A stretch of 64,000 nucleotides of DNA from Leptospirales bacterium (GTDB lineage Bacteria > Spirochaetota > Leptospiria > Leptospirales > Leptospiraceae), in NCBI GenBank assembly GCA_013297885.1, contig JAAFIR010000001.1, forward strand, positions 248,001-312,000, given 5' to 3'. Positions 13,306-53,316 of this stretch are shown here, piece after piece. Positions within the stretch are counted from its first letter, which is position 1, and the number at the start of each line of letters is the position of its first letter. The position numbers and the translations under genes are program-made. Under the pieces are notes generated by a model. The model did not search any database and was not told the origin of the DNA. It saw only the letters and a program-made list of their open reading frames with translations.

Positions 13306-14745
13306 ATGAATTCAAATATTCTAGATACAATCCTAAAAGAAAGAAGTTTTAAAAATGAAAAATCCTTGGCGATTACAAGACTTATCATTTTTTTTATTCC
13401 ATCAGCAGTTGACTTTCTTTCATTTATTGGATTTAGTTCACTTACTCTTTTTAAACCTACCCTACTATCACTTTTTATCAACTCACTTCTACTTTCGATT
13501 TCGTTAATAACTTTGATTTTGTTATATAAAAAAATTTATAATGAATCAATTAAACTTTTTATTATTGTTTGCGACTATTCTATTATTGCATTTGCATTAA
13601 ACTTTGATCCAACAATTCCAAGAGAAGGAAGTTTACCATACTGGACATCTTTTTCAGCAGCAATATTTTTGTTCGTGTTAAATTTACTACGTTATTCCAA
13701 ATTTACTACAATTTTTTCTGGCATTATGTCATTGTTATTATATATAGGAATATGTTATAATTTGCCATCGGATGCAAATGTAGATTTACCTAGAATGATA
13801 GTAGTTCTTATAATTTTTATATTTATAGGATATTTAATTACTGACTCCAATATGAAAATGATGAAAGAAGCAAATACAAAAACTTTAATGGAAAGATATT
13901 TACCACCACAGCTTGTAAATGAACTTTATAATAAAAATGCAAACATCGAACCGGGTGGAAAAAATCAAATAGTTACGATTTTATTTTCAGATATTAGAAA
14001 TTTTACTTCTATTTCTGAAAAAATTTCTGCATCTGAAGTAGTTAGTTTTTTAAATTTGTATCTTTCCAAAATGACAGAAGTAATTTATTCTCAAAATGGC
14101 ACAATTGATAAATTTATTGGTGATGCAATTCTTACAATTTTTGGAGCTCCCATTCAAAATGAAGATGATTCTATTCGAGCAATTCACACTGCACTAAATA
14201 TGCAAAAAAATTTGAAAAACTTAAATAAAGAAAAATTATTTTTTGAAAAAGAAATTAAAATGGGAATTGGAATTCACACTGGAGAAGTTATTGCAGGAAA
14301 TATTGGATCAGATAAAAGGCTAGATTATACAATCATAGGAGATAATGTAAATTTATGCTCCAGAATTGAAAGTTTAACAAAGTTTTATCCTTGTTCTATT
14401 TTAATTTCCGAGTCAACTCTTCAATCAATCCAAAATTTATCAAAAGATGAATTTTTAATTCGTGAAGTTGATACTGTTATTGTGAAAGGTAAAACAAAAC
14501 CAATTAAATTATTTGAAGTATTAGATTATTCTAATGAACTTGAAAAAGAAAAAATTGAAAACTTAATTAATGAATTTACGAATGGATTAAATTTTTATAA
14601 AGAAAAAAAATTCAATGAAAGTTTAAATATTTTTTCAAAACTTACCTACGATGAATTATCCAAATTTTATATCGAAAGAATTAAAGGATTTCAAAAAAAT
14701 CCTCCGCTAGAGTGGAATGGAGTTTATACTTTAGATCATAAGTAA
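13306..14745 (+). CDS. membrane class III adenylate cyclase
   Basis: Makes cAMP from ATP. Residues 1-180 hold about five to six membrane helices with no recognised sensor domain. The cyclase domain is about 222-400: metal-binding D229 (FSDIRNF) and D273 (IGDAI), substrate-selecting K269 (DKFIGD) and T342 (DYTIIGDN), which is the bacterial adenylate pattern, and R353 (CSRIES). A C-terminal helical tail (about 415-479) ends with the PPLEWNGV-type motif seen in spirochaete cyclases. It stands alone with its own upstream region. Confidence 0.9.
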   Translation: MNSNILDTILKERSFKNEKSLAITRLIIFFIPSAVDFLSFIGFSSLTLFKPTLLSLFINSLLLSISLITLILLYKKIYNESIKLFIIVCDYSIIAFALNFDPTIPREGSLPYWTSFSAAIFLFVLNLLRYSKFTTIFSGIMSLLLYIGICYNLPSDANVDLPRMIVVLIIFIFIGYLITDSNMKMMKEANTKTLMERYLPPQLVNELYNKNANIEPGGKNQIVTILFSDIRNFTSISEKISASEVVSFLNLYLSKMTEVIYSQNGTIDKFIGDAILTIFGAPIQNEDDSIRAIHTALNMQKNLKNLNKEKLFFEKEIKMGIGIHTGEVIAGNIGSDKRLDYTIIGDNVNLCSRIESLTKFYPCSILISESTLQSIQNLSKDEFLIREVDTVIVKGKTKPIKLFEVLDYSNELEKEKIENLINEFTNGLNFYKEKKFNESLNIFSKLTYDELSKFYIERIKGFQKNPPLEWNGVYTLDHK

Positions 14746-21747: not shown

Positions 21748-22858
21748 AAAAAAAATCTCTAAAAAAAAAATAAGTTTAAAACTTGAGCCAAAATCTAAAA
21801 AAAATTCCATAAAAAATAAATTTGATTTTTCAAAATTTGATATAGAAATTTCTGCAAAAGATAAAATTTTAATCCCTTTAAACTCTGATCAAATAAGAGA
21901 AAAAGCTGAAAAAGAATGCAAAAAAGTTATAGATAAAATCGATTTGTTAAAAACTGAAATAGATCAATTTGAAACAAGAGACAAACCGACTTACGACTCA
22001 TGGGTTCAATCCAATTTTCAAGATAAAATAGAATCTACTAGAAAAAAAATGCAAACAGTAGAAGAAAAAAGAGAAATAGTAGAAGAGGTTTATAATCTTT
22101 CATTTTTAAGAAAACTTAGTTTCCCAGAATGTTATAGAATAGTTATGGAAGAAAGAAAATTAGAAAAAAAAAGAGAAGAAGAATTTAAAAAAAGGCAAGA
22201 GTCAAATGATAATTCATATGATGATGATTTAGAAGATGATGAATTTGAAGAAGAGGACGAAGATGATGTTTTTAAAGAAGAGTTAAATGATTTTTTTAAG
22301 AAATTTAATTACAATTTTCGAAATGAAATTCCAAAAGAAAAAAATCCTGAGCATAGTGGAAGTTTTAAAGAAAAATATAGAGAACTTGCAAAAAAACTAC
22401 ATCCTGATAAAAATAAAAATCAATCTAAAGCTGATCTTGATTTATGGAATGAACTTCAAGATGCTTATAGAATGAATGATGAATCAAAACTAGATTATAT
22501 TTTACAAAATTTAGAAATGAGAACAGGTAAAAAAATCTTACAATCTTCTATTTTTGATTTAAGGAAAACTAAACTTTCACTTGAAAAATCATTAAGAGGT
22601 ATTCAGACCCAAATTAGAAAATTTAAAAAGGATGTTGCTTGGAATTTTTTTTCAAAGTCTACAAAAGAAAAAAATAAAATTAAACAAGAAATTGAAAGCG
22701 AATTAAGACAAACAAATTTTGAATTAGATAAAGAAAATACTCAATTTACAAAATTAATTGAAACTTGGAAAAATTCTAAATTCCAATCTAAAAGTAAAAT
22801 ACATAATAAAGACATTATTTTTTCGGATGATTTTTTTGAATTTTTTACAAAATTTTAA
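21731..22858 (+). CDS. J-domain protein with coiled-coil flanks
   Basis: A 375-residue, strongly charged protein. A single J-domain sits at about 205-260, with the HPD tripeptide at 224-226 (AKKLHPDKNKN); this motif stimulates Hsp70 ATPase. Around it are long Lys/Glu helices likely to form coiled coils (residues 50-150 and 280-350) and an acidic stretch rich in Asp/Glu at about 155-185. It lacks the Gly/Phe and zinc regions of true DnaJ. The start is at 21731 or at the Met three codons later, either inside the preceding gene. Confidence 0.8.
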   Translation: MLYMVKKKISKKKISLKLEPKSKKNSIKNKFDFSKFDIEISAKDKILIPLNSDQIREKAEKECKKVIDKIDLLKTEIDQFETRDKPTYDSWVQSNFQDKIESTRKKMQTVEEKREIVEEVYNLSFLRKLSFPECYRIVMEERKLEKKREEEFKKRQESNDNSYDDDLEDDEFEEEDEDDVFKEELNDFFKKFNYNFRNEIPKEKNPEHSGSFKEKYRELAKKLHPDKNKNQSKADLDLWNELQDAYRMNDESKLDYILQNLEMRTGKKILQSSIFDLRKTKLSLEKSLRGIQTQIRKFKKDVAWNFFSKSTKEKNKIKQEIESELRQTNFELDKENTQFTKLIETWKNSKFQSKSKIHNKDIIFSDDFFEFFTKF

Positions 22859-23739
22859 AAATGGATAAAACCTATATTTTTCGGAATATAAATTTTACCT
22901 TCTAAAAAAAAACTTACTTTTCCAGTTCCCTTTTTTACTTCTCCAATTTTTATTAGATCAGGAATATTTTCACTCGAAGTACATAGCAGCTCTAGCTCTT
23001 CTCCTGAGGTTAATATATCATCAATGCTTAAATATTTATTTAAAAATTTTAATTCTGGTAATAAATTAATATTTATATAAAAATCATTTTTTGATTCAGT
23101 AGCCATTTTTTTTGAGTCCTGAATTAATCCATCACTGATATCCATCATTGAATGGATTTTGTTTTTTTTTAAAATTTTTTTAATTTCAAAAAATCTGGAT
23201 TTTGGAGTGAGATGCTTTTTTATAGCTCGGGTAGAATTTTTTTTATTTGCAAGATTTATTTTTTTGGATAAAATTTTATAACCCAATATAGAATAACCAA
23301 GACACCCTGTTAAATAAATATAATCTCCCACTTTAGAATCTTTTCTACCAATAGAAAAATTATTTTCAGAAATTAAAGTTAAGTTCAAATTGATTTTTTT
23401 TGAAAAATAAGTATCTCCGCCTATAATCTCATGATTGTATTTTTTTAATAGTTTTAACAACGTTTTTGAAAATTCATTAATCCAAATTTTAGAAATTGTT
23501 TCTTTGTTAAGTCCTAGGTTTAACAATGCATAACCTTTTTTAGAACCACCTGAAGATGCTATATCTGAAATATTTACTTCTACAAGTTTAGTAGCAATGT
23601 CTACAGGTGAACTCCAATTTAGTTTAAAATGTGTTCCTTGGGAAATTGTATCAGTTGTAACTAAGTATTTTTTTTTTAGAAAAAAAGTATCATTAAAATT
23701 TGATTTTAAAAATAGTTTAATTATTGAGTTTTCAATCAT
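22855..23739 (-). CDS. thiL: thiamine-monophosphate kinase
   Basis: Phosphorylates thiamine monophosphate to the active diphosphate. The 294-residue protein has the AIR-synthase/ThiL pattern: TTDTISQGTHFKL, VDIATKLVEVNISDIASSGG with the metal-binding Asp residues, GGDTYFS and SMMDISDGLIQD. It is convergent with the J-domain gene (4-bp overlap) and divergent from the chemosensory operon. It is slightly short compared with typical ThiL (about 310-330). Confidence 0.9.
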   Translation of the reverse strand: MIENSIIKLFLKSNFNDTFFLKKKYLVTTDTISQGTHFKLNWSSPVDIATKLVEVNISDIASSGGSKKGYALLNLGLNKETISKIWINEFSKTLLKLLKKYNHEIIGGDTYFSKKINLNLTLISENNFSIGRKDSKVGDYIYLTGCLGYSILGYKILSKKINLANKKNSTRAIKKHLTPKSRFFEIKKILKKNKIHSMMDISDGLIQDSKKMATESKNDFYININLLPELKFLNKYLSIDDILTSGEELELLCTSSENIPDLIKIGEVKKGTGKVSFFLEGKIYIPKNIGFIHF

Positions 23740-23832: not shown

Positions 23833-24924
23833 ATGTTGGTTAATTTATTTCTTTTTTTATTATTGGTCTGTTTTTCAGTTTTCTCTGAAACAGTTATTTT
23901 TAGAGATGGAAATACAATTAAAGGAAAATTAAAATCACAAGATGCAAATTCTTTAGTTATAAATATTAAGGGCAAAGATAATATAGTATCAAAATCTAAA
24001 ATTAGAAGAGTAATTTATGCAATAACCCAAGAACAAGAAGAAAAACAAGTAAAAGAAGAATTAATAAAACTGAAAATAGAAAAAAGTAAAAAAGTAAAAA
24101 AAACTAAAGAAGAAGAAGATGCTGAAAATTTAGAATTAGAAGTTGAAATTGCTAAAGCAATTGAAGAACAAGAAAAACAAGAAAAATTAAACTTAAATTT
24201 CCAAGATAGAATTAAACTTTTAGAAACAGATATTTATAAATTAAAATCTGAAAATAATTTAGAAGATTCTGGTTCAAAGCTATCTAAACTAGAAGAAGAA
24301 GTTAGAGATTTAAAAAAAAGAACCAGAAGAATTGAACGATTTTTAAGTATAGATCCTGATATTGAAGAATATTATTCAAAACCAAGAAGTCTCTGGTCTG
24401 TAATCTGGAGATCAACTTTAATACCAGGTTGGGGACTTAATTATGCTAGGGACTCTTTTGGAACCATGTATACATCGTTATTTTTTATTGGAGCATTTGG
24501 TTATGTAGGCTTAAATACAAATGTAAATTCATTAGAACAAAAATACAATGACAAATTATTAAATGATTTTCTAATTCAACCTTTTATACTTAACCAAACA
24601 ATTACTTCTACTAGTAGTTTTACTGTTTCATCAAGAAACGATTTTACAAATTTAATTAATCTTAATCAAAATACTAAATTATTTTCATTATATAAATTGC
24701 AGAGAGATGTGGATGATGAAAAAGAAGCAGTTCAATCAATTGCAAATGGACTTGCTGGACTATATGTTTTGCAACTTTTACACTCAGCAGTAGTTGGATA
24801 TTTTTGGTCTAAACAAACAATAAAAAAATTTGATGAGGATTCTAAAACCTCATTAAGAATGAATCTGTTTACAGATCAAAATAAAAACCAAAATTTTCAA
24901 ATTGGGATTCTTTCAAGGTTTTAA
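23833..24924 (+). CDS. membrane/coiled-coil protein heading the che operon
   Basis: A 363-residue protein of unknown function. A signal peptide (LFLFLLLVCFSVFSE) is followed by a small beta-rich part (ETVIFRDGNTIKGKL), a long charged coiled coil (about 70-170) and a C-terminal half with membrane-type segments, including STLIPGWGLNYARDSFGTMY, a pattern seen in DUF5683-like envelope proteins. GAGG 6 nt before the ATG is a good ribosome site. Its stop overlaps the cheR start by one base, so it is co-translated with the chemosensory genes; whether it takes part in sensing is unknown. Confidence 0.65.
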   Translation: MLVNLFLFLLLVCFSVFSETVIFRDGNTIKGKLKSQDANSLVINIKGKDNIVSKSKIRRVIYAITQEQEEKQVKEELIKLKIEKSKKVKKTKEEEDAENLELEVEIAKAIEEQEKQEKLNLNFQDRIKLLETDIYKLKSENNLEDSGSKLSKLEEEVRDLKKRTRRIERFLSIDPDIEEYYSKPRSLWSVIWRSTLIPGWGLNYARDSFGTMYTSLFFIGAFGYVGLNTNVNSLEQKYNDKLLNDFLIQPFILNQTITSTSSFTVSSRNDFTNLINLNQNTKLFSLYKLQRDVDDEKEAVQSIANGLAGLYVLQLLHSAVVGYFWSKQTIKKFDEDSKTSLRMNLFTDQNKNQNFQIGILSRF

Positions 24925-26249
24925 TGGAAGAAATTTTCTTTAGTCATTTATCAAACTTAATAGCAGAAAAAACAGGCGTAAGAATAGGTGAAAATAAAAA
25001 AGAAATTTTTTTAAAGTCATTATTTTCAAAATCAAATATTGCCACTAAACTTAATTTTGAAAAATATACTCTTTATCTTAAAGAAAGATCAGTTCAATTT
25101 GATGCAGAGTGGAAATTGATTTTTCAGATATTAAATATTTCTGAAACCTATTTTTTTAGAGATAAAACTCAAATAGATTTTTTAAAATATACAATACTTC
25201 CTAAACTTATCGAAAAAAATAGAGATCAAAAAAAAATTAAAATTTGGATAGCAGGTTGTTCAACTGGTGAAGAAGCTTATACTATTTCATTTCTAATACA
25301 AGATTTACTTCTAGATATAAGATCTTGGAATATACAAATTCTTGCTACTGATATAAATTTTGATTCAATTGAAAAAGCAAAAAAAGCTGAATATTATAAT
25401 TGGTCTTTTAGAGGAGTTGATAATAACACAATACAAAGATATTTTGATTTTTTTAAAGACAAATATATTGTAAAACCTGAATATAGATTTTATATTAAAT
25501 TTATACAAGAGAATTTGTTAAGTTCATTTCTCAGAAATGAAGTTGATTTTATTCTTTGTAGAAATGTATTTATTTATATGGAAAAAAATATAATTTATTC
25601 AATATTAGATGTTTTTTCAAAAGCACTAAAAGATAATTCTTTTTTAGTAACTGGGCATAATGAAATTAATGGAAATATTCCTGTCGAACTATCGCCTAAT
25701 ATTCAAAATGGAAATACTTTTTATCAAAAAATAATTTTAAAAAATGAAAATTATCCTTTAAAACTAGAAGCTAGAACTAATAAAATCAAACCATCTTTTC
25801 AAGATAAGAAATTTAAGCAGGAAAAGTTGAACACTCTAATCAATCTCGAGTCAGAAAGTTCTTTATTAAATAAAGCTCTTATTTTAGCTGATAGTGGAGA
25901 AACTTTAGAAGCAAAAAATCAATGTAAAAAAATTTTATATATAAACCCTAAAAATTATGAAGCAAATTATTTAATGGGGCAAATATTAGAATCAGAAAGT
26001 AATTTTTCCGAATCAATTAATTATTATCAAAGAGTAATTTCAATTAACCAAAAATATTTAGAAGCATACCTTTCATTAGCAAGTCTATTAACTCTTACAA
26101 ATAAAAATTTAGAATCAAAAGAAATTCGAAAAAAAGGCTTGGAATTATTCACAAATGATGAAACTCTGCGTAAAGAATATGAAACCAAAGGTTATAGCTT
26201 GAATAGTTTTGAATCATTTTTTAAAGATGAAACAGCAACATGGGTATGA
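24924..26249 (+). CDS. cheR: CheR methyltransferase with C-terminal TPRs
   Basis: Methylates glutamates on the chemoreceptor. The CheR N-terminal helical domain covers about residues 5-65 and the SAM-binding domain about 75-275 (IWIAGCSTGEEAYTIS, ILATDINFDSIEKA, DFILCRNVFIYME). Residues about 310-430 form tetratricopeptide repeats (ALILADSGETLEAKN, NYEANYLMGQILESE). The TPR extension resembles FrzF-type methyltransferases of alternative chemosensory systems rather than flagellar CheR. It is coupled to both neighbours by overlaps. Confidence 0.92.
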   Translation: MEEIFFSHLSNLIAEKTGVRIGENKKEIFLKSLFSKSNIATKLNFEKYTLYLKERSVQFDAEWKLIFQILNISETYFFRDKTQIDFLKYTILPKLIEKNRDQKKIKIWIAGCSTGEEAYTISFLIQDLLLDIRSWNIQILATDINFDSIEKAKKAEYYNWSFRGVDNNTIQRYFDFFKDKYIVKPEYRFYIKFIQENLLSSFLRNEVDFILCRNVFIYMEKNIIYSILDVFSKALKDNSFLVTGHNEINGNIPVELSPNIQNGNTFYQKIILKNENYPLKLEARTNKIKPSFQDKKFKQEKLNTLINLESESSLLNKALILADSGETLEAKNQCKKILYINPKNYEANYLMGQILESESNFSESINYYQRVISINQKYLEAYLSLASLLTLTNKNLESKEIRKKGLELFTNDETLRKEYETKGYSLNSFESFFKDETATWV

Positions 26250-27268
26250 AAATTAAAAATTCTTATTTAGTTTTTGAAGTGAATAAATCTTTATACGCTT
26301 TAACTTCTGAAAATGTAGTTGAGTTGATTTGGTTACCAGAATTAAACCCTATCGAAACTACTTATAGTTTTATTGTTGGTTATTTTAATTTTAGAGGTAC
26401 AATTATTCCTGTAATTGATTTATCAATTCGACAAAATTTAAAAACAAAAAAATATTCAACTAATGATAGAATATTAGTCACTTCAGTTAATTCAATAATT
26501 TTTGGAATTCATATTCATGAAATTTATAATGTTGTCCAGATTGAAGAAGGTTCATTAGAAAAATTTATACATAAAGATAATTCTCAAATAATTTCACATG
26601 TAATAAATACAGAATTTGGATTGACCCAAATATTAAATATCAATGATCTTTCAAAATTTGAATTATCAGATATTGAAACAAAAAAAAATATAACCAATAC
26701 TTTTTTAAGTAAACTAATTGGTGAATTGTCAGAAAGAGAAAAAGAAATTTATAATAAAAGAAAAAATTCATACCAAATTCAAACTAAGACAAATGATTAT
26801 TCTGAAAAAATTTCATATGTTTTTTTTAGGATTTTTAATGAATTTTTTTGTATAGAGTTAAAATATATTTTAGAATTTGTATCCGCTGAAACAATTTCCA
26901 GAATTCCTTGCACTCCAAAACATATAACAGGATGTTATAATCAAAGAGGAGATATTTTAGTAGTTTTAGATTTAAGTTATATTCTAAAAAATATAGAAAG
27001 CACAGGAATTGAAAATAAAAAAATCATTGTCGTAAAATATAATGAACTTAGCCTAGGTTTTTTAGTAGATGAATTATTAGATGTAACATATCTAACTAGT
27101 AATTCAATAATTAATACACCACTAGACCAAAAACATTCTGAAAAAGAATTTTTAAAAGGGACTTTTACTTTTAAAGAACAAATTGCTGGTATACTAAATA
27201 TACAAAAAATTTTTGAATTTGAAAAACTAAATGTAGAAGAATACGTAACTCCGGAGATTAATAAATGA
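26246..27268 (+). CDS. cheW: double-domain CheW adaptor
   Basis: Two CheW domains in one 340-residue chain: residues about 5-145 ([19 protein letters not shown]) and about 190-330 ([36 protein letters not shown]), joined by a charged helical linker. CheW links receptors to CheA. I choose the ATG at 26246, which forms an ATGA overlap with the cheR stop; the ATG at 26240 would add two residues. Tandem CheW proteins are unusual; the two halves could bind CheA and receptor differently. Confidence 0.9.
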
Positions 27269-29223
27269 ATCCTATTTTTAATAAACTTGATTTAGCTAAA
27301 AGGCTAATTTTATTTACTGTTTTTTCTACTTTATTAGTTGCATTAAGTATTTCGTTACCAACTTATTTTTCAGGTAAAAATATCATATATGAAACAACTG
27401 AAAAACAAATTGAAATCATTCGAGAAAGTAAAAAACAAGAATTAGAAGAATACTTTAAGGCAAAAATCAACGATGTAAAAATTTTCAGAAAAGGTTATTT
27501 TGTAACTGAAGGATTTATTGAATTAAGAAATGCTTTTGAAGAATATTGTAAAAATTCTGATATTGATAAATGTATGGATGATTTTAGAAAAATTTATTTA
27601 GCAAATAATAATAAAACTGGTTTTTCCTCTGATACTTCAAATTATACTAAAGTATTAAAAAAAATCTCTCCTTATTTTAGTGCGGTAGTTAAAGAAAAAA
27701 AATATTATGATTTATTCTTAATAGATGCAAAAACTGGTAACATTCTTTTCACAGATGCAAAAGAAGATGATTATATGAGTAATTTATTAACTGGAAAATA
27801 TAAAGACACAAATCTAGGTAAATTATTCAGAAGAATTTTAAGCAATAATGACTCAAATAATGATGTAATTCTTTCAGAATATGAACCTTATGCTGCTTCT
27901 AATTATGAAGTGAATGCTTTTATGGGTTCAAATGTTTATGTTGCTGGAAAAATAGAAGCTGTATTTGTTATCCAATTACCTTTAAATGAAATAAGTCAAA
28001 AAGTAAGAAAACCAATTATACCAAATTTAAACGAAGAATCTTATTTAGTTGGTGCAGACTATTTTTTAAGAACAGATATAGAAGAAAAACCAAAAGAAAG
28101 TTTAATTTTAAAAAAGAAAGCTGAAAATGAAGCTGTAAAAAAAGCACTTTTTGGTGAATCAGGAATTATAGTGCAAAATAGCCCTTTTGACCAAAGAAAA
28201 GTTTTTACATCTTATGCACCTTTAGATTTATTAGGCCAAAAATTTGCAATTATAATTGATTTAGACTTTGACCAAACTTTATCAAGTTATAATTCTTTTC
28301 AAAATAGAACATTGTTCTTAACTCTCACTGTTCTTGGTATTATGATTATTGCAAGTTATATACTTTCAAAATCACTTTCTTCTCCAATTAAAGAGTCAGT
28401 AAATTTACTTTCAACTTCTTTAAGAGAAATTTCTTCTGTGATTGAAAATCATGAAAGAAATGCGAATATGCAATCTGCATCAGTGAATGAAACAACAACA
28501 ACTTTAAATAATATTTCACATTCTTCAAGAATTTCTTCTGAAGAATCTATGGTTGTAACAAATAAAGCCAAGGATGCCGAGGAAATGTCTACAAACGGAC
28601 ATTCTTCTGTTGTAGAAATGTTAAACTCAATTGATCAATTGAAAATTAAAGTTAGTGGTATTGCTGAACAAATCATGAAATTATCCGAAAAAAATTCTCA
28701 AATTAGTAATATTATTAGTTTAGTAAGTGAACTTGCAAATGAAACAAATATGCTAGCGTTAAATGCTGCAGTTGAAGCTGCAAGAGCTGGAGAAAATGGA
28801 AAAGGTTTTGAAGTTGTTGCAGTTGAAATTAGAAAATTAGCTGATGAAAGTAAAAAATCAGCATTTAAAATTCAAGAAATAGTTTTTGAAATTAAAAATC
28901 AAACTGACTCTACAGTAATGGCTACTGAAGAAGGTGTAAAACAAGCCGAACAAAGTTATAAAATGGGTAATAGGCTTTTGGATTCACTCTCAGGAATTAG
29001 TGATTCAGTAAGTGGAGTTTTTGATAGTATTGAAAAAATTTCGCTTAATATAAGACAACAATCAATTTCTATTTCTGAAATTGTAGAAGCAATGAACTCT
29101 ATTAATAGAGGAGCACAAGAAACTGCTTCTGGAACAGCACAAACGAAAGTTGGTGTTGATCAAATCACTGATGCTACAAGAAAATTAAAAGAATTAGTTG
29201 AAGGTAAAGTAGAAATTATCTAA
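27265..29223 (+). CDS. methyl-accepting chemoreceptor
   Basis: A 652-residue transmembrane receptor. TM1 is about residues 13-33, a periplasmic ligand domain about 35-345, TM2 about 350-368. Only a stub of a HAMP-like segment ([15 protein letters not shown]) precedes the signalling coiled coil. The hairpin tip is intact: [20 protein letters not shown] and [20 protein letters not shown]. No CheR-tethering pentapeptide is present at the C terminus. It is the only receptor in the operon and is likely its dedicated input; the ligand is unknown. Confidence 0.93.
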
Positions 29224-31769
29224 TGATAGATGACGAAGAGTTAAGAGAATTATTTCAAATAGAGAGTGATGAACATCTTCAAGTAATTGAAAGTTGTTTA
29301 CTTGAACTTGAAAAAAAACCAAATGATCATGATACTCTGCACTTAATTTTTCGTGAAGCACACTCTATGAAAGGTGCTTCGAGAATGTTAGGATTATCAG
29401 ATATTGAATCAATCTCTCATATCTTCGAAGAATCACTAGGAAAAGCTGGGCGTGGTGAATTTACATTAACTAGTTCACATATCGATATTTTTTATGAAGG
29501 TCTAGATGCAATTCGTAAACTTGTTCATGAAGCTGTAACTGATGAAAAAGTAGAATTAGATATTGTAAATTTATTAGAAAGACTATTACATCCTGATAAA
29601 GGAGTTACAAATTCACCAAAAAAACCAAGAGAAAGTAATTTAGAATTATCAGAAATTCATAAATTAAAACTTGTTCCTGAATCAATGAATACTGTTATAA
29701 TAGAAGATCATTCAAAAAACTTAAATATTCATGAATCTTCAAATTCTTTATCAGAAATAAAAGAATTTAAAGAGCAAGAAATTCCAGAAAATCCAATTGA
29801 TATAGTTGAAGATAAGAAGGAACAAATTCTTGAAAAACCAAACAGTTTTGAAATAGAAAAACTTCAAAACTTACAAAAAGAAAATGATTCTAATGAACAA
29901 ACTACTAAAATTGAAAAAGAATCAAATATAGATATTGAAAAGATTATTCAAAGCAAAAAAAAATCTATTGTTAGTTTTGTAAAAACTGATATTGATGAAT
30001 CAAAAAAACCTGCCTCTACAACTGAACAAAAAAAACAAGACACAATGCGTGTTGAACCGGCAAAATTAGATGCTTTAATGACTCAAGCAGGTGAATTAAT
30101 TGTTACAAAAAATAGAATTTCAAATAGATTAAAAGATGTAAGTTTAATTGAAGAATCATTTTCTGAAATTTCAAATATTTTCCAAGAAACTAGAAAAATG
30201 TTTCAAATATTAAATAGCGAAAATAAAACTAGTTCAGTAAATAATTTAATTCAAAATTTTGAAAAGCAAAATTTAAAATTTGAAGAAACTGTAATTAAAT
30301 TAGATAATCTTAAAAAAACGATATCACATGATATAACAAGACTTAGTGCAACTTCTGTTAAAATTGAAAGAAGTATTTTTAGCATGAGAATGCTTCCATT
30401 AAATTCAGTTTTCAACTTATTTCATAGAAGTATAAGAGATTTAAGTAAAGAGACAGATAAAAAAGTTAATCTCGATATAATTGGTGGTGAAACTACAATT
30501 GATAAACAGATTTTAGAAGAAATGAAAGATCCATTAATGCATGTTCTAAGAAATGCTGTTGATCATGGAATTGAAACCAAAGAAGAAAGGTTAATTTCAG
30601 GAAAAGAAGAAATAGCAACTTTGACATTATTTGGTAGAGCTCAATCTGATTCTATTATTATTGAAATTATTGATGATGGTAAAGGAATCAATCCTGAAAC
30701 AATAAAACAAAAAGCAATTGAAAAATCTTTATATACAAAAGAAGAATTAAACTTAATGGATGAAAAAACAATTTTAAATATTATTTTTCATCATGGCTTT
30801 TCAACAAGAACTGATGTATCTAGTCTTTCTGGAAGAGGAGTCGGTATGGATGTTGTAAAAAATTTTGTTGAAAAATTTAAAGGTGATATCGAAACAATTT
30901 CAGTTCTTGGTAAAGGAACAACTTTTAGGATCAGACTACCACTAAAATTTTCGACTACAAATATATTAATTTTTAAAGTTAATAATCAAAAATTTGGCAT
31001 CCCAACTGAAAATGTAATTTTAACAAAAACAATTAGACAAAAAGATATTTTTGAGTTGGAAGGCAAATCTACAATTATAATTGAGAATGAACCATATTAT
31101 CTTTTTCCCTTAGAACCTTATCTTGAAATGAATTGGTATAAGAACGAAAAAAAAATTAATTCTTCACCTAGTATATTATTAAAATCTAATAATGTAAAAA
31201 TTGCACTTCTAGTTGATGAGTTAATTGAAAAAAATGAAGTAATTGTTAAAGCCTTCGAAGGTATTTTAAAAAGAGTTAGAAATGTTTCTGGAATGACAAT
31301 TCTAGATTCAGGAGAAATTTGTATTGTATTAAATCCCAAAGATTTAATAGAATCAATTCTGAAATTTAAGCGAAATGTAGTATTTGAAGAAAACTCCAAA
31401 ACAGAAGAAAAAAAGAAAATTTTAGTTATAGATGATTCATTAACAACAAGAGTTCAACTAAAACGAATCATTGAATCAGAAGGTTTTCAAGTTGAACTTG
31501 GAGTAGATGGTGAAGATGGTTGGGAAAAGTTGAAAAAAGATAAATTTAGTTTTGTATTAACAGATTTAGAAATGCCTCGACTTACTGGAATAGAATTAAC
31601 TAAAAGAATTAAAGATTCAAAATACAAAGAAACACCGGTAGTATTATTAACTTCGCTTGGTAGTGAAGCACAAATTCAACATGGATTAGAAATAGGGGCA
31701 GATGCTTATCTAATTAAAAGTAAATTTGATAGAAATGATTTGATAAGCACAATAAAAAGGTTTATATGA
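29223..31769 (+). CDS. cheA: CheA histidine kinase fused to a receiver
   Basis: An 848-residue hybrid kinase. The Hpt/P1 domain carries phospho-His47 (EAHSMKG). A long acidic, low-complexity linker (about 135-275) lacks an obvious P2 domain. The dimerisation and ATPase domains follow (MRVEPAKLDALMTQAGELI, HVLRNAVDHGIE, GRGVGMDVVKNFV), then a CheW-like P5. The C-terminal receiver starts near 732, with acceptor Asp about 781 (VLTDLEMPRLTG). The fused receiver may act as a phosphate sink or relay. There is no separate CheY gene here. It overlaps the MCP stop by one base. Confidence 0.95.
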   Translation: MIDDEELRELFQIESDEHLQVIESCLLELEKKPNDHDTLHLIFREAHSMKGASRMLGLSDIESISHIFEESLGKAGRGEFTLTSSHIDIFYEGLDAIRKLVHEAVTDEKVELDIVNLLERLLHPDKGVTNSPKKPRESNLELSEIHKLKLVPESMNTVIIEDHSKNLNIHESSNSLSEIKEFKEQEIPENPIDIVEDKKEQILEKPNSFEIEKLQNLQKENDSNEQTTKIEKESNIDIEKIIQSKKKSIVSFVKTDIDESKKPASTTEQKKQDTMRVEPAKLDALMTQAGELIVTKNRISNRLKDVSLIEESFSEISNIFQETRKMFQILNSENKTSSVNNLIQNFEKQNLKFEETVIKLDNLKKTISHDITRLSATSVKIERSIFSMRMLPLNSVFNLFHRSIRDLSKETDKKVNLDIIGGETTIDKQILEEMKDPLMHVLRNAVDHGIETKEERLISGKEEIATLTLFGRAQSDSIIIEIIDDGKGINPETIKQKAIEKSLYTKEELNLMDEKTILNIIFHHGFSTRTDVSSLSGRGVGMDVVKNFVEKFKGDIETISVLGKGTTFRIRLPLKFSTTNILIFKVNNQKFGIPTENVILTKTIRQKDIFELEGKSTIIIENEPYYLFPLEPYLEMNWYKNEKKINSSPSILLKSNNVKIALLVDELIEKNEVIVKAFEGILKRVRNVSGMTILDSGEICIVLNPKDLIESILKFKRNVVFEENSKTEEKKKILVIDDSLTTRVQLKRIIESEGFQVELGVDGEDGWEKLKKDKFSFVLTDLEMPRLTGIELTKRIKDSKYKETPVVLLTSLGSEAQIQHGLEIGADAYLIKSKFDRNDLISTIKRFI

Positions 31770-32800
31770 GTGATAAAATAAAAGTTATCCTAGTCGAAGA
31801 TTCAGCAATCGTTCAATTGATTCTAAAAAGAATATTAGAAAAATCAAACGAGATTGAAATTTTAGGTATAGCTAATAACGGTAAAGAAGGTTTGGAGTTA
31901 GTAAAAAAATTAAATCCTGATGTTGTATGTACTGATTTAATAATGCCAATTATGGATGGTTTAGAATTCACTAAACAATTGATGGCAATTTTACCAAAAC
32001 CGATTTTAGTTATTTCAGCTTCTCTTCAAGGAAAAGATGAAACAAATGTTTTTTCACTTTTACAGGCTGGAGCTGTTGATGTATTTCCCAAACCTCTTGG
32101 AGGAGAGGAAAAAGATTATGAATTAATTGGAAAAAGATTAGTTTCAAAAATTAAAATTTTAAAATCTGTTCCTGTTTATAAAAAAAATAATAAAGATGTT
32201 TCTCAAACTAGTTCTTATGAAGCAATTTCATTTAGTAGATCAAAAATTGAATATTTATTAATTGGAGCATCTACTGGTGGACCAAAAGCAATTCAAACAA
32301 TACTTTCTTCTTTTGGAAAAGATTTTCCAATTCCAATTATTTGTGTTCAACATATTTCAGATGGTTTTATTGATTCAATGGTGAGCTGGCTTAGTGCGAA
32401 TATTAAATTAAAAGTTAAAATTATGCAAGAAGGTGAGAAAGCAGAAAAGGGGACAGTTTATTTTCCGCAAAATATGAAACATTTGAGTATTAATAAGGAT
32501 GGTACTTTAAGAATTTCTAAAGAAATTTCTTCTAACGGTCATACTCCATCTGTTAATGTAACTTTTAAATCATTTGCACAGTATTTTGGTTCGAAGACAA
32601 TTTCTGTTCTCTTGACAGGAATGGGAGATGACGGAGCAAGTGGGATGTTATCACTAAAACATTTAGGTGGGCGGACTATTGCTGAGGACCATACAACTGC
32701 TGTTGTATATGGAATGCCTAAAGTAGCTAATGAGATTGGTGCAGCTGAATTCACTTTACCATTAGATAAAATAAGTCAAAAAATTTTTTCTTTAATTTAA
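31766..32800 (+). CDS. cheB: CheB receptor methylesterase
   Basis: Removes methyl groups from the receptor under kinase control. The receiver domain (1-125) has Asp57 (CTDLIMPIMDG). The esterase domain (about 160-344) has the catalytic triad Ser169 (IGASTGG), His196 (CVQHIS) and Asp288 (LTGMGDDGASG). It overlaps cheA by an ATGA junction and completes the adaptation pair with cheR. The length of 344 residues is standard. Confidence 0.95.
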   Translation: MSDKIKVILVEDSAIVQLILKRILEKSNEIEILGIANNGKEGLELVKKLNPDVVCTDLIMPIMDGLEFTKQLMAILPKPILVISASLQGKDETNVFSLLQAGAVDVFPKPLGGEEKDYELIGKRLVSKIKILKSVPVYKKNNKDVSQTSSYEAISFSRSKIEYLLIGASTGGPKAIQTILSSFGKDFPIPIICVQHISDGFIDSMVSWLSANIKLKVKIMQEGEKAEKGTVYFPQNMKHLSINKDGTLRISKEISSNGHTPSVNVTFKSFAQYFGSKTISVLLTGMGDDGASGMLSLKHLGGRTIAEDHTTAVVYGMPKVANEIGAAEFTLPLDKISQKIFSLI

Positions 32801-32801
32801 A

Positions 32802-34007
32802 ATGAATAATACAATTGTTTTTGCTGAAGATTCTGCGGTTCAAGGTGTAGTATTAAAAAGAATTTTAACTGAAGAGAATTATAAGGTTTTTTGGGGAAAA
32901 AATGGAAAAGAGGCATTTAAGCTAATTGAAAAAGAACGACCTGATATAGTTATTACTGATGTTGAAATGCCTGATATGAATGGTTTTGAATTGTGTAGAA
33001 TAATAAAAAGTAGAGATGATCTAAAAGATATCCCTGTAATAATTTGTTCTTCTTTATCTAGGCCTGAAGATATTATGACTGGTATCGAAGTTGGTGCAGA
33101 TGGGTATGTAACTAAACCATACGATAAAAAATTTTTAATGTATAGGATTAAAGCATTATTAGAAAATCCACTTTCAAGTAATGAAGAAATACTACCAATT
33201 AAAATTAACTATTCAGGAAAAGAGTTCGTAATCTTATCTGATAGGCTTCATATCTTAAATATGTTACTTTCTACTTATGAAAATTCGCTAAAACAATACA
33301 ATGAATTAGTAACAGCTCAAATTGAACTTAAAAAATTAAATAAATCACTTGATTTAAGTAAAAAAGAAACAGAAGAATTACTTCTAAATATTCTTCCAAA
33401 AAAAATAGCTGGTGAATTAAAAGAAACGGGTGTAACTAAGCCAATTTTTTATGAACAAGCAAGTATTTTGTTTACAGATTTTAAAGGTTTTACTAAAATA
33501 TCTGAACTGTTAACTACAAATGAGTTAATTGAATCATTAGATAAATTTTTTAGGTATTTTGATTCAATATTACAAATTTATAAAATTGAAAAAATTAAAA
33601 CCATCGGTGATGCCTATATGTGTGTTTCTGGTATTCCCGAGGAAGATCCCTTTCATGCAATTAATTTAGTAAAAGCGGCATTAGAAATAGCTGATTATAT
33701 GCAAGTAGTAAATCTATATAATGAGGGAACAAATGTTCCTAAATGGGAAATACGAATAGGTATCCATTCAGGTCCTTTAGTTGCTGGTGTTGTTGGTTCA
33801 AAAAAATTCTGTTATGATGTTTGGGGAGATTCAGTAAATGTTGCAAGTAGAATGGAATCATCCGGTGAACCAGGAAGAGTTAATATCTCAGGAGCTACCT
33901 ATGAAATTATTAAAGATTACTTTGATTGTGACTACAGAGGAAAGATCAAAGCTAAGAACAAAGGTGAAATTGATATGTATTTTGTAAATTCAATTAAGAG
34001 AGCTTAG
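32802..34007 (+). CDS. receiver-linked adenylate cyclase
   Basis: Likely the output of the chemosensory operon. The receiver domain (1-120) has acceptor Asp53 (ITDVEMPDMNG). A coiled-coil linker (about 160-200) leads to a class III cyclase domain (about 215-395). Metal-binding D226 (FTDFKGF) and D270 (IGDAYM), ATP-selecting K264 (EKIKTIG) and D339 (YDVWGDSVN), and R350 (ASRMESSG) are all present, matching adenylate rather than guanylate cyclase. There is only one base between it and cheB. CheA phosphotransfer to Asp53 controlling cAMP synthesis is the natural inference. Confidence 0.92.
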   Translation: MNNTIVFAEDSAVQGVVLKRILTEENYKVFWGKNGKEAFKLIEKERPDIVITDVEMPDMNGFELCRIIKSRDDLKDIPVIICSSLSRPEDIMTGIEVGADGYVTKPYDKKFLMYRIKALLENPLSSNEEILPIKINYSGKEFVILSDRLHILNMLLSTYENSLKQYNELVTAQIELKKLNKSLDLSKKETEELLLNILPKKIAGELKETGVTKPIFYEQASILFTDFKGFTKISELLTTNELIESLDKFFRYFDSILQIYKIEKIKTIGDAYMCVSGIPEEDPFHAINLVKAALEIADYMQVVNLYNEGTNVPKWEIRIGIHSGPLVAGVVGSKKFCYDVWGDSVNVASRMESSGEPGRVNISGATYEIIKDYFDCDYRGKIKAKNKGEIDMYFVNSIKRA

Positions 34008-34734
34008 AGTTATCTTCTTTAAAATATTTTTCTATCAAGTTATGTATTAAATAAATTGCAGGTGTTAGTAAAATAGCAATTATCAATTTGTAAAAAAAAT
34101 TTGTTAAAGATATATTTGTTAAACTAGAAATATTTGTATAATGAAAAAAAGGTAAACCGAATATTTCACTTGATTCATATTTTCCAAATGCAATAAAAAT
34201 GACCACAAATGAATCAATTAATTGAGAAATAATTGTGGATCCAGTTGCTCTAAGCCAAACCATCTTTCCTTTTGTTTTTTCTCGTATAAAATGAAATACT
34301 TGGATATCAATTAATTGACCAATTAAATAAGCTGTTATAGAACCAAGTATCACTAGTCCTGCACTAGCAAAAACTTTTTCAAAGGATATATCATCTACTG
34401 GTGAAATTTCATTTGCTGGAATTCTTAGATCAATAAAAATAATCACATAGGCAATTGCGACCATAAACATTCCAAGTAAAGTTGTAAATCTTACCATTTT
34501 TTTTCCATAAAATTCATTTAACACATCAGTAATTAAAAAAGTCATTGGAAATGGAATTACTCCCATCGTCATAATAAACTTAGTTGGTAATAAAGTGGAG
34601 ATTCCAATTAATGTAAAAAGATTTGTCAAATCTAAAGTAATTAATTTAAAACCTGTTAGTTCTGCGAGTAACAAAAAAGTTAAGAATAAGGCGTTTAAAA
34701 TTATATATAATTTTGTTTTTTTATCTAAAATCAT
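33994..34734 (-). CDS. yhhQ: queuosine precursor transporter (YhhQ/VUT family)
   Basis: A 246-residue membrane protein with about six helices. The conserved stretches PTKFIMTMGVIPFPMTFLITDVLNEFYGKK, shortened here to its hallmarks MGVIPFPMTF and TDVLNEFYGKK, and SQLIDSFVVIFIAF are typical of the vitamin-uptake-like YhhQ family that imports 7-cyano- or 7-aminomethyl-deazaguanine. It is the last gene of the lysA operon (4-bp overlap with the gene before) and is convergent with the cyclase gene (14-bp overlap). Confidence 0.88.
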   Translation of the reverse strand: MILDKKTKLYIILNALFLTFLLLAELTGFKLITLDLTNLFTLIGISTLLPTKFIMTMGVIPFPMTFLITDVLNEFYGKKMVRFTTLLGMFMVAIAYVIIFIDLRIPANEISPVDDISFEKVFASAGLVILGSITAYLIGQLIDIQVFHFIREKTKGKMVWLRATGSTIISQLIDSFVVIFIAFGKYESSEIFGLPFFHYTNISSLTNISLTNFFYKLIIAILLTPAIYLIHNLIEKYFKEDNSKLS

Positions 34735-51045: not shown

Positions 51046-53316
51046 TTATCTACTACTTAAAGGTCGCCTGATTAATTCCATATCAGCATCATTAACTAAT
51101 CCAATTAATTCATAAATTCTAACAGGTTGTGTCTTACCTTTAACTTGAACTAAATCTAATTCTCTTGCATAAACTCTATCTTTTACTCTTTCATAAGTGT
51201 ATTCAGATATAATAATATTAGTCCCATAAGTTTTATTTGAACCTTCAAGTCTTGAACCTAGATTAATTGTATCCCCCATTACAGTATAATTCATTTGATG
51301 TGAACTTCCCATATTTCCAACAACTGCATGACCAGAATTTAAACCAATTCCAATATCTATTGTTGGAAGATTTCTGGCAGCGAGTGAAATTTGTAACTCT
51401 TTTAATTTATCCATTTGTACTAGACTTGCAACACATGCATAATAAGGATGATCTTCTAAAGCAATTGGAGCACCCCAAAAAGCCATTATAGCATCACCCA
51501 TATATTTATCAATAGTGCCTTTATATTCAATTACTAAATCTGTCATTGTAGTTAAATATTCATTTAATAGTTTAACTAGATCTTCTGGACTAAGTGCCTC
51601 TGATAAAGTTGTAAAACCTCTCACATCCGAAAAGAAAATAGTAATTTCTTTTCTTGCACCACCAAGTGCAATCATGTCAGGATTTTTTAATAATTCATCT
51701 ACAACATCTTTGGATACGAATTTAGAAAAAGTGGTTCTGATGAATTTTACATTTTCTTCTTCTGCTAAAATTTTATATGCAATTATAGAAACAAAAATAA
51801 ATAAAATTGAAATAATTATTGTTGGTTGAATTATAATAAAATCAAATAAATCAAAAATCTTTGTGGTTATTAAGTAATACAGAATTACAACTGCAAAAAA
51901 TAATAGGATGGAAGTATAAGTTTTAAATCTGGATTGTAAGTAAGCAAAACCTAAACCCAAAATTATTAAAACTATCAAATTTAAAATTTCTGGTGCATTT
52001 GTTAAAAATCTTTGATTTAAAATGGTATTGATTGCATGAGCATGATGTTCTATACCGGAAATTTCACCAAAAGGAGAAAGATGTGTATCTTTAGAAGCAC
52101 CTCTACCTGTTGCATAATACATTGCAGTTAAAAAAATATGGTTTTTAAAATTATTTGCAAATTCTTTTCCAAAATCAGCAACATCAAAAATATCATAATC
52201 CTCAAAAGAAAATAATGAACCTTCAAAATTAATTTGCATTTGTCCGAAATAATCAATTGGAATTTTAATTTCACGGGCTTCATTTGGATAATTCATTATA
52301 TCTTTATCTTGACCATCAAGATTGGTAATCATTTTCTTTGGAATATTTTTAATTTTAACATATTCTCCAAAAACAACTTCAGTATCTTTAATTAAATCCA
52401 CTCCATAATAATTACAAACTGTTACTAAATCAATTGAAGGAAAAAATTCAGTCTCTTTGTTTGGTCCATGATTAATAAGTTTAACAACTAATGGCATTTT
52501 TCGATTTGATTTTTGATCTTCTTTTCTTATATTTGCAAAACCAATACCAGTAGAATTTTCAGTAATATGTTCAATTGGTGGTGAAGCAAAATTTAACCAA
52601 ACTTTTCCTAAATCATTTTTATCTATTACATTTTTAAGTTGAAATCTTCTCAATTTCTCAAGTCTTGATTCTAAATTTATTACAGAGTCTTTAGATTCTG
52701 ATGTCGACTCAATGGAATAGTCAAAAATCATATTTGTAGAACCTTTTAAAGACTTCTCCATTAATTCCATTTGTCCTTTTTTATAATCTACAAAAAAGAT
52801 ATCAAAAAAAACAGTATTAGTAGAATTTTTAAATCCATCTACAATTTTTGCATACATACTCCAATTAATTGGCCAAGTTCCCTGAAGTTTCTCTAAAGTA
52901 TTAGTTGTGATTCCAATGATTTTTATATTTTGATTAATATTGGGAATAGCAATTCTTTGAAAAGTTTCTGAACCATCTTCAAGTTGTTTTACACCTTTAC
53001 CTACGATTCCACGAGTCACAGCAAATCGATTTGAAATAGAAGATTCTTCTAGAGCTTTACCAAAACTTTCAAATTTCAAACCATAAAAAATAAATAAAAT
53101 TGAATTTGCGATTAATAAACTTCCATGAAGTTGCTTATTATTACTTTTTGAATCATTTAGTTTATAAACAAAATAAAAAGTTAACAAAATTAAACAAATA
53201 CCCACTCTACTAAAATTTTGTATTACAAAAATTTCACTATCTAAATAAATTCCTGCACAAGCAAGAATAATTCCTATTATATAAAATATAATTGCTATAT
53301 AACTAATAACTTTCAT
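51046..53316 (-). CDS. CHASE2-domain adenylate cyclase
   Basis: A 756-residue membrane cyclase. About three N-terminal helices (residues 1-82) precede a periplasmic CHASE2 sensor (about 95-430), followed by further helices (about 435-515) and a cytoplasmic class III domain (558-735). The metal sites are D564 (FFSDVRGF) and D608 (YMGDAIM); the selectivity residues are K604 and T678 (MNYTVMGD), the bacterial adenylate pattern. The signal bound by CHASE2 is unknown. It shares an operon with two unknown upstream genes and dxs. Confidence 0.93.
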   Translation of the reverse strand: MKVISYIAIIFYIIGIILACAGIYLDSEIFVIQNFSRVGICLILLTFYFVYKLNDSKSNNKQLHGSLLIANSILFIFYGLKFESFGKALEESSISNRFAVTRGIVGKGVKQLEDGSETFQRIAIPNINQNIKIIGITTNTLEKLQGTWPINWSMYAKIVDGFKNSTNTVFFDIFFVDYKKGQMELMEKSLKGSTNMIFDYSIESTSESKDSVINLESRLEKLRRFQLKNVIDKNDLGKVWLNFASPPIEHITENSTGIGFANIRKEDQKSNRKMPLVVKLINHGPNKETEFFPSIDLVTVCNYYGVDLIKDTEVVFGEYVKIKNIPKKMITNLDGQDKDIMNYPNEAREIKIPIDYFGQMQINFEGSLFSFEDYDIFDVADFGKEFANNFKNHIFLTAMYYATGRGASKDTHLSPFGEISGIEHHAHAINTILNQRFLTNAPEILNLIVLIILGLGFAYLQSRFKTYTSILLFFAVVILYYLITTKIFDLFDFIIIQPTIIISILFIFVSIIAYKILAEEENVKFIRTTFSKFVSKDVVDELLKNPDMIALGGARKEITIFFSDVRGFTTLSEALSPEDLVKLLNEYLTTMTDLVIEYKGTIDKYMGDAIMAFWGAPIALEDHPYYACVASLVQMDKLKELQISLAARNLPTIDIGIGLNSGHAVVGNMGSSHQMNYTVMGDTINLGSRLEGSNKTYGTNIIISEYTYERVKDRVYARELDLVQVKGKTQPVRIYELIGLVNDADMELIRRPLSSR

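Follow-up and report, generated by a model that had tools for sequence, protein, structure and literature searches.

What does a chemosensory operon control when it encodes no CheY and its last gene specifies a receiver joined to a nucleotide cyclase? Such an operon lies in a 64,000-nucleotide stretch of a Leptospirales bacterium genome (assembly GCA_013297885.1, contig JAAFIR010000001.1, positions 248,001 to 312,000 of the forward strand), hereafter the window, to which all unlabeled positions refer. We assign a probability of about 0.8 to the reading that the genes at 24924–34007 form an alternative-function chemosensory pathway with cyclic AMP (cAMP) as its dedicated output, working by the mechanism proposed below; the operon would then probably turn an outside chemical signal into cAMP, and not into a change in swimming. 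We take cAMP to be the dedicated output because the gene order is conserved, the receiver and cyclase are intact, and the receiver-linker part of the terminal protein is tied to the operon family across phyla.

Conserved gene order and intact residues

A previous reading of the letters alone (the sequence-only reading) had described seven coupled genes, here named MEM, CheR, CheW, MCP (methyl-accepting chemotaxis protein), CheA, CheB, and CyaR (the cyclase). The list of open reading frames (ORFs) of the window agrees with it in position, and places all seven on the same strand. The junctions are as tight as had been claimed, with overlaps of 1 nt (MEM/CheR), 10 nt (CheR/CheW), 4 nt (CheW/MCP), 1 nt (MCP/CheA), and 4 nt (CheA/CheB), and a 1-nt gap between CheB and CyaR. 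Pfam reproduced the domain content given earlier: CheR followed by TPR; CheW twice; MCPsignal in the single MCP; Hpt, H-kinase_dim, HATPase, CheW, and receiver (REC) in CheA; REC and CheB; and REC and Guanylate_cyc in CyaR. The cluster had also been described as lacking CheY, CheX, CheC, CheD, and CheZ, none of which appears among its ORFs, and 22.8–36.7 kb of the window contains no CheY-type gene at all, PilG/PilH kinds included.

Besides gene content and order, the functional residues can be read directly. CheA has H47, the N-box, the G1/G2 boxes, and D781 of its REC, and CheB has D57 and S169/H196/D289. The CyaR receiver carries the acidic pair E9 and D10, the acceptor D53, which had been named correctly before, S83/S84, and K105. 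Its cyclase domain carries the metal-binding D226 and D270, D339, and the transition-state residues N346 and R350. Adenylate and guanylate cyclases differ at a Lys column that picks the purine. By alignment to mammalian C2 cyclases and to class III cyclases of the K/T type, the adenine-selecting Lys of CyaR is K266, the second Lys of EKIKTIGD; the sequence-only reading had the ATP type and D339 right and chose K264, two residues away, as the lysine. With two metal Asp residues, a Lys/Asp pair, an Asn, and an Arg, CyaR has the residue set of a class III adenylate cyclase, and its predicted specificity is of the ATP type.

Within the order, 30 genomes were searched (G000–G029, where G000 is the genome of the window). 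CheA matches at E < 1e-100 were found in G003 (same genus), G005 and G006 (same family), and G023 (same order). G005, G006, and G023 retain the order CheWW-MCP-CheA:REC-CheB-REC:CYC, as does G003 up to the contig limit, and CheR precedes this core wherever the contig extends that far. The search for the same gene order that had been proposed was therefore successful, cyclase included, in all four relatives; the outcome set beforehand as overturning the proposal, a cluster without the cyclase in every relative, was not seen. In each of the five genomes, the receiver retains its acidic pair, acceptor Asp, Ser/Thr, and Lys, the cyclase residues are intact, and the cluster holds no CheY. In G005 and G006, the cyclase gene is followed by an extra MCP gene (L060:11976-13859 and L062:14135-16021), which the window does not have.

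The 4.6-Mb genome encodes 51 class III cyclases, a number that would allow one of them to be a chance neighbor of the chemosensory genes. This explanation is effectively refuted: the position is conserved in five genomes whose CheAs share 39–61% identity, the order recurring in four genomes other than that of the window; only 5 of the 51 cyclases have a receiver; and the receiver-linker of CyaR is homologous to regulators found at the same place in other phyla. The five receiver cyclases are CyaR, one protein in a second che cluster (C50), a free REC-cyclase (L206), and two kinase-REC-cyclase hybrids. A receiver without a fused kinase thus occurs in three of the 51, two of which are encoded directly downstream of CheA/CheB. 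The second che cluster (L055:10401-18419, G000:C50) encodes an MCP, CheWW, CheA-REC, and a protein of 672 aa in which two REC domains are combined with a cyclase. The hybrids, L200 (G000:C68; 1096 aa) and L220 (G000:C8; 1003 aa), have a CyaC-like layout. Two further class III cyclases, without receivers, lie in the window at 13306-14745 (479 aa) and 51046-53316 (756 aa). The genome also gave 13 CheW matches, 29 MCP matches, and 26 matches to cNMP-binding domains, which are candidate cAMP effectors. It also encodes FlaA, a protein that supports its assignment to the spirochaetes.

A shared receiver-linker with different outputs

Among named genomes, the five-gene core CheR-CheWW-MCP-CheA:REC-CheB is often seen in cyanobacteria, Nitrospirota, Pseudomonadota, and Thermodesulfobacteriota, with a different gene following CheB. 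Among the homologous operons examined, this gene encodes a receiver followed by a (hybrid) histidine kinase in Magnetococcales, Nitrospirota, Betaproteobacteria, Desulfobulbaceae, Sedimenticola, and others. Receiver plus histidine kinase is also found in four spirochaetes (G196, G083, G200, and G015), and a fifth (G362) has receiver-PAS-GGDEF. Residues 1–205 of CyaR match these kinase and GGDEF regulators over about 180–200 residues, at 34–43% identity and E values of 1e-33 to 1e-51; the exception is an armatimonadotal protein (L078), in which the match is limited to the receiver. The homology includes a linker of about 80 residues, with the consensus Y-A-G-x-x-Y-x-I...R-x-Q-I-L-N-L-L-L-S-T-Y-E-N...E-L...Q-x-E-L-K-x-L-N. 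A profile of this linker matched a single location in the whole genome, the CyaR gene, and the other receiver-cyclases do not have it. In an AlphaFold model, the linker forms a β-hairpin and then a roughly 60-residue helix that leads into the catalytic domain; the underlying alignment was shallow (9 rows) and the linker pLDDT about 65, and only the linker secondary structure was used. Distances between CheAs and between receiver-linkers were correlated across 19 operons (Mantel r 0.66, 0/5000 permutations), a correlation to which shared species history contributes in part.

The catalytic domain of CyaR has a separate ancestry, as it clusters with roughly a dozen class IIIa cyclases encoded by this genome, apart from other che-linked cyclases. 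Because an operon-specific receiver-linker is joined to a catalytic domain that groups with the genome's own class IIIa enzymes, CyaR is best read as a chimera of the operon-family receiver-linker and a locally recruited class IIIa cyclase domain. By these sequence comparisons, the receiver-linker appears to have kept its place while the output domain was exchanged. A REC-cyclase without the linker also adjoins CheB on a cyanobacterial contig (Planktothrix sp. UBA8402, L127:5528-8085).

Spirochaetes contain a second CheA-cyclase lineage, in which CheA:REC is followed by a REC-X-CYC protein of 600–670 aa. About 44 of the 393 spirochaete genomes gave near full-length matches, and the cyclase gene lies directly downstream of CheA in all 30 loci checked. 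These cyclases pair Lys with Thr/Ser where CyaR has Lys/Asp. The approximately unbiased (AU) test rejected a joint CheA clade, with p-AU 0.0016 for groups I+II+III and likewise for I+II, and did not reject groups II+III as one clade (p 0.25). A single origin of all cyclase-output CheAs was rejected on this result. Since the CheAs could not be joined in one clade and the cyclase types differ, Che operons of spirochaetes gained a cyclase output on at least two occasions.

The receivers of this second lineage bear on how CyaR might be controlled. They are intact or nearly so in 14 loci from families other than f22; in f22 (L258–L273), all 16 loci have lost at least two of the acid pair, acceptor Asp, and Lys, with the acceptor Asp gone in 15, and the cyclase site is intact. 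The f22 proteins are possibly pseudo-receiver outputs. An intact cyclase beside CheA with a degenerate receiver would fit another role for the CyaR receiver, as a phosphate sink or as a phosphorylation-independent dimerization or docking module, with the cyclase regulated by binding to the array. We regard this as unlikely, given that all five members of the window lineage retain the acidic pair, acceptor Asp, Ser/Thr, and Lys, and that the degenerate receivers belong to the other CheA lineage.

On balance, we favor a broader view, in which the operon family has a fixed receiver-linker socket after CheB whose outputs (histidine kinase, diguanylate cyclase, or class III adenylate cyclase) are exchanged, leading to phosphorelay, cyclic di-GMP (c-di-GMP), or cAMP. 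Spirochaetes would have made the cyclase link at least twice, and one family would later have lost phosphorylation and kept the linkage.

Proposed signaling route and its alternatives

The MCP has transmembrane segments near residues 8–35 and 348–372, and Pfam found no HAMP domain in it. Its AlphaFold model, built from a seven-row alignment, had a mean pLDDT of 68, with 80–95 across most of the periplasmic part. Foldseek matched the model to the ligand-binding domains of McpH, PctA, CtaA, and PscC, with E values of roughly 1e-8 to 1e-6 and TM scores, relative to the target, reaching 0.7, and dCache_1 was matched at a low score in an MCP homologue (L097). The signaling domain aligns with Thermotoga TM1143 with zero net indel. 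Judged from the modeled fold, the ligand is likely a small molecule.

Phosphotransfer, the direction of control, the ligand, and the downstream cAMP targets are the parts of the route that we infer. The dCache MCP would sense a small molecule in the periplasm and, via the double CheW, govern autophosphorylation of CheA at H47, while CheR-TPR and CheB would adapt the receptor by methylation. The phosphoryl group of CheA may go to the receiver at the C terminus of CheA, to CheB, and to CyaR at D53. The receiver of CyaR would then act through the β-hairpin and long helix of the linker to alter the rate of a cyclase homodimer. Phosphorylation is expected to activate CyaR.

The sequence-only reading had proposed that the MCP sets cAMP, not flagellar rotation. 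For the first part, cAMP as the dedicated output is well supported; the second could fail if CheA phosphorylates CheYs encoded elsewhere. The output might then be behavioral, with CheA acting on such CheYs or on its own REC, and the cyclase serving as a side branch that tunes adaptation or motility. Other che clusters of the genome (L056 and L057) do encode single-domain, CheY-like REC proteins, flagellar genes including FlaA are present, and CheA has a REC of its own. We nevertheless consider a behavioral output quite improbable: the cluster is without CheY in all five genomes, it is the receiver-linker of the cyclase, and not a CheY, that travels with the operon family, and the CheA tree places this CheA among kinase-output operons, far from the CheAs of the same genome at C51 and C24.

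Several points weigh against a dedicated cAMP output. The pathway is inferred from sequence. CheA-adjacent cyclases without a phosphoacceptor site exist in f22, and adjacency alone is no proof of phosphotransfer. Within the operon, the CheA REC and CheB are two other possible phosphoacceptors. With 51 cyclases present, CyaR might change total cAMP only slightly or locally. Finally, the cluster is patchy, occurring in 5 of the 30 genomes searched from the order.

Extent of the unit and comparison with known systems

The coordinates of the genes and domains are collected in Table 1. On the left lies a divergent AIR synthase-like gene (22855-23739) and on the right a convergent Vut_1 transporter gene (33994-34734), and these orientations bound the gene group at both ends. 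Scanning for promoters and terminators told little in this AT-rich DNA: promoter-like sites numbered 77, where 64 would be expected, and no terminator was found.

Table 1. Genes and domains of the chemosensory locus (positions in the window).
Feature	Position	Strand	Basis
MEM, 363 aa: N-terminal signal segment and coiled coil	23833..24924	+	no Pfam family; co-directional neighbor
CheR methyltransferase with C-terminal TPR	24924..26249	+	Pfam; relatives
TPR repeat of CheR, residues 345-378	25956..26057	+	Pfam
Double CheW coupling protein	26240..27268	+	two CheW stretches, Pfam
MCP: two transmembrane helices, periplasmic dCache-like domain, MCP signaling domain	27265..29223	+	Pfam, residue check, AlphaFold/Foldseek
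MCP periplasmic ligand-binding region, residues 36-347, tandem-Cache fold	27370..28305	+	Foldseek of AlphaFold model
CheA hybrid Hpt-dimer-HATPase-CheW-REC	29223..31769	+	Pfam; H47 and kinase boxes intact
CheA C-terminal receiver, residues 733-844, acceptor D781	31419..31754	+	Pfam, residue check
CheB methylesterase with REC	31766..32800	+	Pfam, residue check
CyaR: REC, linker, class IIIa adenylate cyclase	32802..34007	+	Pfam, alignment, AlphaFold model
CyaR receiver, residues 4-119, acceptor D53	32811..33158	+	Pfam, residue check
CyaR conserved linker, residues 121-200, modeled β-hairpin and long helix	33162..33401	+	homology, AlphaFold model
CyaR class IIIa catalytic domain, residues 217-396	33450..33989	+	Pfam, alignments; D226, K266, D270, D339, N346, R350

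MEM was considered as a seventh component and rejected. Its orthologues in three congeners (48–50% identity) adjoin a gene for a type I phosphodiesterase/nucleotide pyrophosphatase and none lies next to che genes; the identity of this neighbor comes from Pfam for two of the three (L186 and L188), and the gene content was seen in L186, L187, and L188. No MEM-like gene lies upstream of cheR in G005, G006, or G023. Because MEM has no che linkage in relatives, the working unit has six genes, not the seven described previously; MEM is a neighbor that may be co-transcribed in the window and is probably outside the pathway. The MEM orthologue and the phosphodiesterase gene form a conserved pair in the three congeners.

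The anatomy is solid and the circuit complete, yet the system is of an expected kind. In the operon, CheR-TPR occurs with a multidomain response regulator (REC-linker-cyclase) and no CheY, which matches the alternative cellular function (ACF) type. The flagellar class, with CheY and CheX/CheC/CheZ/CheD in the cluster, does not fit, nor does the Pil-Chp/type IV pilus type with its PilG/PilH-type CheYs, nor the Wsp type with REC-GGDEF, as the output domain is Guanylate_cyc (PF00211). In its treatment of ACF clusters, Munoz-Martinez et al. 2012 (PMC3447774) gives CheR-TPR as typical, together with multidomain response regulators, and lists a mononucleotidyl cyclase among the outputs of the latter, so REC-cyclase regulators in CheR-TPR clusters were already known. 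The main text of that paper names no spirochaete and demonstrates no function for them, and its response-regulator section does not describe cyclase, kinase, and GGDEF outputs as sharing a homologous receiver-linker. What is new is the receiver-linker socket on which outputs have been exchanged, the two spirochaete recruitments, and the family with degenerate receivers. The sequence-only reading knew of no characterized spirochaete system with direct cyclase output, and we found no characterized spirochaete Che-cyclase operon in the literature searched; cyclase output as such is not unusual in spirochaetes, given the spread of the second lineage.

If the proposed pathway is correct, the operon is a natural, self-contained converter from array to cAMP with all components encoded together, and a simple system for direct control of a second messenger by a CheA array with methylation adaptation. 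The receiver-linker with its interchangeable outputs would be a case of natural modular signaling, and the spirochaete loci suggest that chemosensory arrays with cAMP as their output are common in this group and no exception.

Each half of the mechanism has a precedent, in the chemosensory control of cAMP in Pseudomonas aeruginosa and the receiver control of CyaC. The P. aeruginosa Chp system controls cAMP through CyaB, as PMC3019171 states in citing Fulcher 2010; by that account, it is a chemosensory pathway that has a CheA-REC hybrid and increases cAMP, and in this it resembles the window operon. It differs in that two CheYs (PilG and PilH) and FimL provide the link to CyaB and type IV pili are also controlled, whereas in the window the cyclase itself bears the receiver and is encoded in the operon. 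The second spirochaete lineage likewise has its cyclase directly downstream of CheA, and differs in CheA clade, cyclase class, and the degenerate receivers of f22. Cyanobacterial CyaC is, like CyaR, a receiver-controlled class III cyclase, and is reportedly activated by phosphotransfer via its receiver (Kasahara and Ohmori 1999, cited in PMC1183210). It combines kinase and cyclase in one protein and is not known to work with a chemoreceptor array, and its analogues in the genome of the window are the kinase-REC-CYC proteins L200 and L220. A further parallel in components is Wsp/WspR (in part PMC3447774), which shares the MCP, CheW, CheA-REC, CheR-TPR, CheB, and a receiver-fused nucleotide cyclase; its output is c-di-GMP from a GGDEF domain instead of a class III cyclase product, and spirochaete G362 holds the GGDEF version of the socket.

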